Virus record (IMG/VR): IMGVR_UViG_3300009506_000027
Location: 1 to 62,689 of that record
Reading direction: 5' to 3' (one strand)
Length of the DNA: 62,689 nt
Source of the DNA: a virus
Part shown: piece by piece, positions 10,954 to 20,342 of the stretch
Layout of the letters: every line of letters begins with the position of its first letter
Numbering within the stretch: position 1 is the first letter of the stretch
Notes under the pieces: model-generated
Databases searched by the model: none
Told to the model about the DNA's origin: nothing
The model's input: the letters and a program-made list of their open reading frames with translations, nothing else
Translations under genes and position numbers: made by a program

Positions 10954-11029
10954 GTGTGATTAGCTCAGTGGTAAGAGCAAAGCGGCGATAACGCTTAGGT
11001 CGCGGGTTCGACCCCCGCATCATACACCA
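10954..11029 (+). tRNA. tRNA-Ile(GAU) inside the large RNA
   Basis: 76 nt, all arms intact: acceptor GTGTGAT/ATCATAC (one G-U pair), D stem GCTC/GAGC with GG in the loop, anticodon stem AAGCG/CGCTT, T stem GCGGG/CCCGC with loop TTCGACC, discriminator A and encoded CCA. Anticodon GAT at positions 34-36. Odd: position 33 is C, not the near-universal T, and 32 is G. It sits in the apical loop of a 15-bp helix of the surrounding RNA. Confidence 0.9.
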
Positions 11030-11424: not shown

Positions 11425-11637
11425 GTGACAGCAATTCCACCGGAAGGCTACAAGAAGTATCCCTGGGCCCTCGGCCCGATGAAGCTGCCCTGCGACTTCT
11501 TTTTCGAGGGTGACGACGCGGACAGAGCGGCGAGTGCCGCCAGGGTATGGGCGTCACGTAACAAGCATCACGGGATCCGCGTGGCGACCAGGAAAGAGCC
11601 TGGCGGCGTGCGAATCTACTTCCAGCAGGAGAACTAG
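11425..11637 (+). CDS. Hypothetical protein (70 aa)
   Basis: I choose the GTG at 11425 because AGGGAGGT stands 7 nt before it; an in-frame GTG at 11407 has no such site. The product (MTAIPPEGYKKYPW...) is small, with a helix (ADRAASAARVWASR) and strands at the end (GGVRIYF). Function unknown. First gene after the RNA terminator. Confidence 0.6.
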   Translation: MTAIPPEGYKKYPWALGPMKLPCDFFFEGDDADRAASAARVWASRNKHHGIRVATRKEPGGVRIYFQQEN

Positions 11638-11638
11638 C

Positions 11639-11860
11639 ATGGCGAGGCAGAAGCTCTTTGAGTACGCAGCCATCTTCCACCCAAGGGCCACCAAAGCCCA
11701 GAAGGACGCCGGGGAGGACCCGAAGTCCGAAATCATCATCTTCCCCGAGGTCGTTCTCGCCTACGACGAACGTGAAGTGGCGATGCGCGTCGCCAAGCAA
11801 CTCCCCGACTCCTACATGGACAAACTGTCTCAGGTCGAAATCATCATCCGGGGTTTTTAG
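11639..11860 (+). CDS. Conserved hypothetical protein, zero-frame product (73 aa)
   Basis: 73 residues from MARQKLFEYAAIFHP. It has a beta-alpha pattern (KLFEYAAIFHP, SEIIIFPEVVLAYDEREVAMRVAK, DKLSQVEIIIRGF). The shape resembles a small phage protein family of unknown role, but I cannot name it. The stop TAG directly follows a canonical slippery heptamer, so a longer -1 product is likely (next entry). Confidence 0.7.
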   Translation: MARQKLFEYAAIFHPRATKAQKDAGEDPKSEIIIFPEVVLAYDEREVAMRVAKQLPDSYMDKLSQVEIIIRGF

Positions 11861-12087
11861 CCGGTCCTCCCCGCCAGGAGCAGCCCGAAAGCGAGGCTGC
11901 GGGGCAGGACGTCACGTTGGTTCCTGGGTGGCGGTCCGAACCCGTGTGGTGGGCCGAGCAGCCTGGATACAACACAAACGGATTCGTTGACAACGCCCAC
12001 ACAATCTCCGACAATGCTGGAGGCGTGCTTTACACCTACACAGCAACCGACGCCTCTTCGTATATGGCCTCAGAGGTGGTCCCGTAA
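11857..12087 (+). CDS. Likely -1 frameshift extension of the 11639 gene (76 aa)
   Basis: The -1 frame stays open from the slippery site to a TAA at 12085 and has protein-like composition (WWAEQPGYNTNGFVDNAH, GGVLYTYTATDASSYMA), yet has no ATG and no good ribosome site. The heptamer G GGT TTT (11851-11857) is in phase. Six nt later a stem-loop follows: 11864-11873 pairs with 11900-11910 with one bulge, and inner CAGCC with GGCTG. The full product would have 149 residues. Its TAA overlaps the next ATG (TAATG). A TTG start is the alternative. Confidence 0.6.
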   Translation, partial: LAGPPRQEQPESEAAGQDVTLVPGWRSEPVWWAEQPGYNTNGFVDNAHTISDNAGGVLYTYTATDASSYMASEVVP

Positions 12088-12488
12088 TGGAACATCCCCG
12101 ACGACTGCCGATCCCCCACCGAGGGGGAATGTTGTCGGGGAAGAATTACACCAAGCCGACGTCGTGGTCTGCCGCGTTGCGGAGGGACTTGAAATACATC
12201 CTTGAATGGATGATGGCGCTACGGGTGGAGGGTGCCGACAGCCTTCTCAAGCTCGTGCCCAAGGTCGATAGCGCGATCGTCGGCTTCAGGGTTGGGAGCA
12301 AGGCACTAAGGATGATGGCCGGAATAGACTGCCGCTGCGACGCCCTCCCCCATAAGCCCTACTGCACGATCTGGAAACGCTTGAAATTTGGCGAACACTT
12401 CTGGTCAGAGTACGGGATGACGCCGAGCACGGATGAGCCGCCAGTCGGCTATGGTGAGGATGTGATCCAATTTCCGAAGGTGGTTTGA
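12087..12488 (+). CDS. Hypothetical protein (133 aa)
   Basis: ATG overlaps the stop of the frameshift extension (TAATG), with GAGGTGG upstream. Basic N-terminus, central helices, then a Cys/His group (IDCRCDALPHKPYCTIW) that could bind zinc. Function unknown. Confidence 0.6.
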   Translation: MEHPRRLPIPHRGGMLSGKNYTKPTSWSAALRRDLKYILEWMMALRVEGADSLLKLVPKVDSAIVGFRVGSKALRMMAGIDCRCDALPHKPYCTIWKRLKFGEHFWSEYGMTPSTDEPPVGYGEDVIQFPKVV

Positions 12489-13806: not shown

Positions 13807-14164
13807 CGCATCACCCAGGGAGCGCCTGGAGGCCCTCCTTCAGGTCCCCCCCATCGAACAAGTTCACGAGAACGTTCGGAGGATGTGGCACATGGGGGAG
13901 CGGTTCCCTGTCCCCAAGTTTATCCCATCTTGTCCGTGCTGCTCCTCCGTAGACGTGATCCTGCGCTACTTCAGGTTCTTCAAGCGCGGCGGGCACGCCA
14001 CCTATCCGTTCCGTTGTGACGTCCACATGAAATGTGCGACGTGCAGTGTGGTGTGGGCCTACGGGGTTGTGATCCCGGAGGAAATGTTCATCAGGAACCA
14101 GAAATACGGGATGGTTCACAGGAAGATCATCCTCCAAAGATTGGAGAGCAAAGAGGGTGTCTGA
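13787..14164 (+). CDS. Zinc-ribbon protein
   Basis: 125 residues. Two Cys groups, CPCCSS (about 49-54) and CATC (about 83-86), with strands between them, form a likely zinc ribbon. It stands directly before the large terminase and overlaps it by 8 bp. A role in packaging or late transcription is conceivable; nothing in the sequence decides. Confidence 0.65.
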   Translation: MATFDADASPRERLEALLQVPPIEQVHENVRRMWHMGERFPVPKFIPSCPCCSSVDVILRYFRFFKRGGHATYPFRCDVHMKCATCSVVWAYGVVIPEEMFIRNQKYGMVHRKIILQRLESKEGV

Positions 14165-19235: not shown

Positions 19236-20342
19236 ATGGCTGATACGACCTATGGCATCCACCTGTCTCCCGACCTGTATGGTGGCACCGTACAGGGAAT
19301 GGACATTGAGAAACTTTCTCGGGAACGTATCCGGGAAATGCTTGATGCGAGACAGGAAGCAAGAAACGCTGCTGCCGACCTGATCCTCGGTGGGCTCGCC
19401 ATTACCACGACCGAGCGTGCGACCCTGATCGGGCAGCACAATGCTCTCGGGGAGTGGGAAAAGGGCACCGAGACTGGGCGTCCCAAGCGGCGTCGGGTGT
19501 CTGGCCTCACGGGGCTGGGCTTCCCCCTCTACAAGTTTGAGACTCGTTCCGGCTGGAGCTACGATTTCCTGGCGAAGGCCAAGAACATCGAACTCCTCGC
19601 CACTTTCGAGGAGATCATGGGTGGACACTTGCAGGCGCTCTACAAGGACGCCCTGCGTGCCCTGTTCTCCAACACCGCCTACACCTGGAATGACGAACTC
19701 TTCCCGGAGGACGGTGACATTGCGGTGAAGCCCCTGGTCGGTGCGGATTCCGACTATACTCCCCCGCCCTGGAACGGGAATGAGTTCGATGGGACTCACG
19801 ACCATTACCTCGCCATCGGAGCCACCTTCGATGAGGCTGACATGACCACGGCTTGCGACGAAGTCCGCGAGCATGGTTACGCCATGCCGAGGTCCATCGG
19901 CGGGTTCGGTGGACACATGGAACTCTGGATTCCAGAGAACATGAAGGCGACGGTGATCGCGTTCACGAATCACGTTGAGGCCAACGATTCCATGGTGGCC
20001 GACGTCAACAAGATTTGGGCGCGTGTGGACGGTGATCGGTACGAAGGATACAACAGCGCGGCCAAGTGCTGGATTCGGGTCGTGCCGTGGCTCCCGGATT
20101 CCTACTACATCGCTTTCGCCAACACCATCACCGCCCCTGGGCAGAGGAACGCTTTCGCGCCTCTGCGTCGGCGTGTGCCGCAACAGGCTGCGCTGCGCGG
20201 GATCAAGCGGTTTGACGACCGCGAGTTCCCCCTCCAGGACGCCTACTGGGTTGACTGGTTCGGGTACGGTGTCTACGACCGCGTTTCTGCGGCCTGTGGG
20301 TACCTCCATGCCGACACCTACACGGTGCCGACCATCAGCTAG
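19236..20342 (+). CDS. Major capsid protein
   Basis: 368 residues, good ribosome site (GGGGAGAAAGG). N-terminal helix (KLSRERIREMLDARQEARNAAADLIL) then a mixed alpha/beta body. Size and position between decoration and connector genes make it the capsid subunit; I cannot demonstrate the HK97 fold from motifs alone. Confidence 0.8.
   Translation: MADTTYGIHLSPDLYGGTVQGMDIEKLSRERIREMLDARQEARNAAADLILGGLAITTTERATLIGQHNALGEWEKGTETGRPKRRRVSGLTGLGFPLYKFETRSGWSYDFLAKAKNIELLATFEEIMGGHLQALYKDALRALFSNTAYTWNDELFPEDGDIAVKPLVGADSDYTPPPWNGNEFDGTHDHYLAIGATFDEADMTTACDEVREHGYAMPRSIGGFGGHMELWIPENMKATVIAFTNHVEANDSMVADVNKIWARVDGDRYEGYNSAAKCWIRVVPWLPDSYYIAFANTITAPGQRNAFAPLRRRVPQQAALRGIKRFDDREFPLQDAYWVDWFGYGVYDRVSAACGYLHADTYTVPTIS

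Follow-up and report, generated by a model that had tools for sequence, protein, structure and literature searches.

What happens at the end of a 73-aa phage gene whose stop codon directly follows a slippery heptamer, and is the open frame beyond it translated? The window analysed here is a whole IMG/VR phage record of 62,689 bases (IMGVR_UViG_3300009506_000027), and the features of the frameshift locus described in it lie on the + strand. Its 0-frame gene (11639-11860) begins with an ATG at 11639, preceded by an SD-like AGGAG (11627-11631), and ends in ...VEIIIRGF at the UAG of 11858-11860, giving the short product of 73 aa. The heptamer GGGTTTT (11851-11857), in 0-frame phase G_GGU_UUU, fits X_XXY_YYZ and adjoins this stop codon, an arrangement also found in the relatives described below. 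A first-pass annotation of this DNA had proposed a -1 slippery heptamer right at the stop, and both were verified at these positions. We consider it very likely, at roughly 0.9, that expression of the gene at 11639-12087 involves programmed -1 ribosomal frameshifting, a reading built on sequence comparison.

Starting from the TTA at 11857, the -1 frame of the window remains open for 76 codons (LAGPPRQEQ...YMASEVVP) up to a TAA at 12085-12087. It contains no ATG before codon 70 and its earliest GTG or TTG is codon 21 (TTG 11917), which agrees with the earlier description of an extension lacking a start of its own. That description had also called the frame protein-like, and indeed its codon usage resembles that of the phage's own genes: over the extension the -1 frame scores +0.17 bit/codon, while the remaining frames reach -0.30 and -0.71, compared with 0.36 +/- 0.14 for the true frame and -0.68 +/- 0.21 for wrong frames in reference windows. 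The ATG of the next gene (12087-12488) overlaps the TAA of the extension (TAATG), which is the layout expected if the -1 frame is translated.

A stem-loop that could act as frameshift stimulator occupies 11864-11910, 6 nt past the heptamer. In its outer stem GTCCTCCCC (11864-11872) pairs with GGGGCAGGAC (11901-11910) with one interruption, and its inner stem is formed by GCAGCC and GGCTGC (11880-11885/11895-11900). The structure had been described as canonical; a stem after a 6-nt spacer is present as claimed, but in this GC-rich stretch the hairpin taken alone is no better than shuffled sequences (z -1.2 over 60 nt and -0.5 over 83 nt), and the 83-nt fold favours a different structure. Site and hairpin of the window are on their own only suggestive, and it is the relatives that decide.

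Relatives were not found in viral contigs by single-sequence searches with the 0-frame protein or the extension, nor by a two-sequence profile; searches with the extension alone were empty because it is too variable. Among GenBank phages, tblastn returned one relative, an uncultured phage of 735 kb with the site C_CCT_TTT_TAA and an open -1 frame. About ten true relatives were recovered with a DNA pattern anchored on RPF-stop, and a protein-profile search free of any codon constraint yielded 41 loci. After addition of the 735-kb phage and removal of one spurious match and of duplicates, 36 distinct members from IMG/VR and the 735-kb phage remained, which form 26 clusters at 70% identity; the family profile matched the 0-frame gene of the window record at E 1.3e-27. 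Searches by N-terminal peptides alone gave the same set and one further locus (L111), with C_CCT_TTT_TAG and a 68-codon extension ending in ATYTNASSLTN. The contig that holds L111 was assigned to a Bacteroidia MAG and may derive from a prophage or be a phage contig. The slip-site arrangement recurs in dozens of very different uncultivated phages.

The codons of the slip site are strongly constrained across the family. Its proline codon is CCT in 35 of 36 members (31% in neighbouring ORFs and 22/111 in the rest of the gene), and the arginine codon before it is CGC in 29 of 36 against a background of 17%. This arginine codon is CGN in every member, with not a single AGA or AGG, which make up 42% of background arginine codons. 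Counted by cluster, with flanking ORFs as background and clusters taken without a tree, the probabilities are about 4e-12 for CCT, 3e-12 for CGC and 6e-7 for the constant CGN. The phenylalanine codon is TTT in 30 and TTC in five of the 36, and one member has TTG in its place. The heptamer of the relatives is mostly C_CCU_UUU or C_CCU_UUC, and it is followed by UAG (25), UAA (7) or UGA (4).

Conservation of heptamer and extension among homologues had been named as a check for the window's site: CCU followed by UUN stands right before the stop in 35/36, and the -1 frame spans at least 44 codons in 35/36 where it is readable to its end (median 63 codons, compared with 6 in the +1 control of the 36 members). 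Two deviants, L080 (A_CCC_TTT) and L077 (CCT TTG), have lost the exact heptamer, and in them the extension or its end motif is absent. No clear instance of the contrary pattern, a lost heptamer together with a downstream frame equipped with a separate ribosome site and start codon, was seen among the relatives. The window itself differs in that the proline of its relatives is replaced by glycine, though CGG GGT TTT still conforms to X_XXY_YYZ. A pattern search for other members with RGF or G_GGU found none, so this variant rests on a single sequence.

The hairpin gains weight at the level of the family. For stems starting 3-8 nt past the slip site the summed score is 482, compared with 256 +/- 33 in dinucleotide shuffles (z 6.9), and the signal peaks at just this offset. 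Stems of 9-11 bp with unrelated sequences are found in L041, L047 and L057, and the hairpin sequences generally differ among relatives despite the common offset; an individually significant simple hairpin was detected at only 12 of 33 tested sites. This excess is indirect evidence for a 3' stimulator. Together with the conserved slip codons and the open -1 frames it argues for the programmed -1 frameshift that the first-pass annotation had suggested, and the conservation of heptamer and extension favours its further suggestion of a new frameshift-controlled protein pair.

Tandem -1 slippage on X_XXY_YYZ with a hairpin stimulator is the best-supported mechanism. The sequences establish the site, an open and conserved -1 frame, selection at synonymous positions of the slip codons, suitably spaced hairpins across the family and a conserved extension end; slippage in cells, its efficiency and the function of the products are inferred. 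Most ribosomes would terminate at the UAG at 11858 and release a compact 73-aa domain. Others, held up by the 11864-11910 hairpin and perhaps also by the stop codon, would step back one base on G_GGU_UUU, re-pair with GGG UUU and read 76 more codons, producing a protein of about 149 aa.

The strongest competitor, which we consider rather unlikely as a replacement for the tandem slip, leads to the same product: while the A site holds the stop codon, only the P-site tRNA-Phe, paired with UUU (or UUC), would slip onto the overlapping UUU, the pause coming from the stop codon instead of, or besides, the hairpin. The stop adjoins the site in all members, with UAG the commonest (25/36), and re-pairing of U_UUU or U_UUC needs just the conserved last U of CCU. 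Moreover, the X position is not C in 7/36 members; in 6/36 it is T or G, which implies weaker P-site re-pairing in a tandem slip. The preference for C at X (CGC in 29/36 vs 17%) and the G_GGU of the window nevertheless point to selection for re-pairing of the P-site tRNA in a tandem slip. P-site slippage with the stop in the A site may contribute beside it.

It is far less probable that the extension forms a short gene of its own, which ribosomes would reach without any frameshift, through re-initiation or coupling once the 0-frame has ended. The arrangement is tight and some extensions do contain an early start, in one clade a GTG or ATG at codon 4 where re-initiation is conceivable, but most members, the window among them, have none within the first 10 extension codons, SD-like sites before the first start are rare, and both the synonymous-site conservation and the hairpins would be left unexplained. 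Transcriptional slippage on the T run, which would generate a second mRNA, is more improbable still: a run of five T exists in the window and in most relatives, but the known cases involve T runs longer than 8 (PMC3711429), and members with CCT TTC have just four T in the run. The window is a single metagenomic contig, but chance or a sequencing error as the origin of its -1 frame can be dismissed almost entirely, since 25 of 26 divergent clusters, drawn from many samples, are arranged alike and the -1 frame is under selection.

If the gene is read by tandem -1 slippage, its two products would share the 73-aa domain. AlphaFold2 predicts the 0-frame protein with a mean pLDDT of 95 (32-row alignment) as strand, short helix, strand, two helices and strand (beta-beta-alpha-alpha-beta), and the last predicted strand, VEIIIRGF, contains the slip site and ends at the stop codon. 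In Pfam, PHROGs, NCBIfam and PDB sequences no family was matched by more than one member, and the best matches were weak. Fold searches gave weak matches, among which PurS and the N-terminal fold of eL20 (L18a) are not prominent: the best Foldseek E was 0.09, and VIA-align gave Z up to 6.3 for PurS-/L18a-like arrangements (60 residues, 2.3 A), which is within the range of common arrangements. One carrier, the 159-kb phage G002, has three copies of the domain, of which the copy with the slip site lies at 56.9 kb. Two tandem paralogues were observed at about 320-988 of L112 (G002:C1:1-6000), one of them ending in RAL and devoid of a slip site. The other is a 147-aa in-frame fusion, which shows that a protein of domain plus extension is a viable form.

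The extensions comprise 44-98 codons in most members and 188 in the 735-kb phage, are rich in S, T, N, G and A, hypervariable and poorly alignable, and the window's extension has no match in Pfam. In the 735-kb phage (L002, 1700-2270) the -1 extension of 188 codons carries collagen-like Gly-rich repeats. In the closest informative pair (L064/L075) dN/dS of the extension is about 0.33. Most extensions end in a motif similar to (S/T)(Y/F)xx(A/S)(A/S)x(L/I), for instance YTSAASLV, YTSASTLK, FNAAQLLQR or TSYMANSIN; low motif scores were obtained for L044, L056, L067, the 735-kb phage and the L037 extension. The C-terminal peptide of the window, TDASSYMASEVVP (12046-12084), fits this motif (cf. TSATSYMANSIN in L064/L068), with a shuffle p of about 0.005 for the whole extension and 0.026 for the tail, and has the top score among the window ORF ends tested under the motif profile. 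No convincing case of the peptide on other proteins was found in six carrier genomes.

From this anatomy the short form would supply the bulk of the subunits and perhaps oligomerise. The long form, made in minor amounts, would carry a flexible tether with a short peptide at its tip for docking to a partner, and the rate of frameshifting would then set the share of tethered subunits. A bulk short form with a minor tethered docking form is the most economical interpretation of the anatomy and probably the most likely one; the tether-and-dock function as such is a tentative proposal that we would back at clearly less than even odds.

Several known recoding systems resemble this one in part. The phage tail assembly chaperones of the lambda G/GT type likewise make a C-terminally extended minor product through a -1 slip late in their first ORF. 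No sequence relation to them was found, and in contrast to G/GT the stop here immediately follows the slip site and the extension is hypervariable. The gene is also placed ahead of the terminase, at a distance of 16 kb from the longest window ORF (27789), the presumed tape measure, and the copies of other carriers are near replication and nucleotide genes. A role as tail assembly chaperone, which had also been denied from the start, was rejected: there is no PHROG or Pfam match, the locus precedes the terminase large subunit at 14157, and the neighbours of the relatives are genes of replication, of nucleotide metabolism and for chaperonins. The dnaX tau/gamma system resembles it in that the slip site is soon followed by a stop and by a 3' hairpin and that a longer and a shorter product result; the extra domains of its long form tether partners. 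Its protein is unrelated, however, and slippage in dnaX yields the short form. Gene 10A/10B of T7 and the Ig-like capsid extensions of the T3/A2 type share the -1 slip near the gene end and the extended minor form, and the T7 slip site is of the G/U type (G_GU...; PMC5009743). Here, unlike in the 10B type, the domain has 73 aa and is not a capsid protein, and the extension is without a Pfam match. A minor form of the capsid was ruled out, the major head protein being encoded at 19236-20342 (phrog_3990). Finally, the CCC_UGA and CUU_UGA shifts of Listeria phage tsh and prfB also abut a stop codon, but these are +1 shifts, whereas the shift proposed here is -1 on a tandem X_XXY_YYZ.

The mechanism itself is of an already known kind. 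A published description of this frameshift family was not found in the literature searched; as far as that literature shows, three things appear to be undescribed: the gene family, its stop-abutting C_CCU_UUY site conserved in unrelated phages, and an extension that is hypervariable except for its conserved end. Recoding in phages has been reported mainly in tail-assembly, capsid and tail genes (PMC5009743, PMC10885494, PMC3711429). We see about an even chance that these loci represent a widespread, undescribed frameshift-controlled phage family outside the virion genes, in which the domain would carry the slip site in its last strand and a minor form, with a fast-evolving tether and a conserved docking peptide, would attach a few subunits to a partner in replication or host takeover. 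If true, this would add a recoded family carried by unrelated phages, one genome of which also has an in-frame fusion paralogue. Since gene callers end the protein at the stop and miss the extension, the second product has probably been overlooked in many phage genomes. Its naturally occurring C_CCU_UUY-stop sites could moreover be used to study how an adjacent stop codon affects -1 frameshifting.

The genomic contexts of the relatives are varied: their neighbourhoods include genes for a clamp loader, an exonuclease, a Sak4-like protein, DNA polymerase, nucleotide metabolism and chaperonins. Tail chaperone and capsid frameshift genes have different surroundings. GroEL genes, in some cases together with GroES, were seen about 2-5 kb upstream in L041, L044, L064, L066, L068, L072, L075 and L076; conserved chaperonin neighbours occur in only 3/26 clusters. 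The terminase family of the window was absent from the 13 other carriers tested, whose contigs may be fragments, which suggests that these phages are not closely related. The window's copy of the gene has a tRNA-Ile/GOLLD-like RNA on one side and the terminase genes on the other. Such an RNA accompanies the frameshift gene in none of 19 other records. The GOLLD-like RNA of the window (RF02032; 10880-11355, + strand), in which the tRNA-Ile (10954-11029) is embedded, scores 146.6 bits (E 5e-41), slightly under the gathering score of 150, with a full-length match to the model and a terminator-like hairpin at its end.
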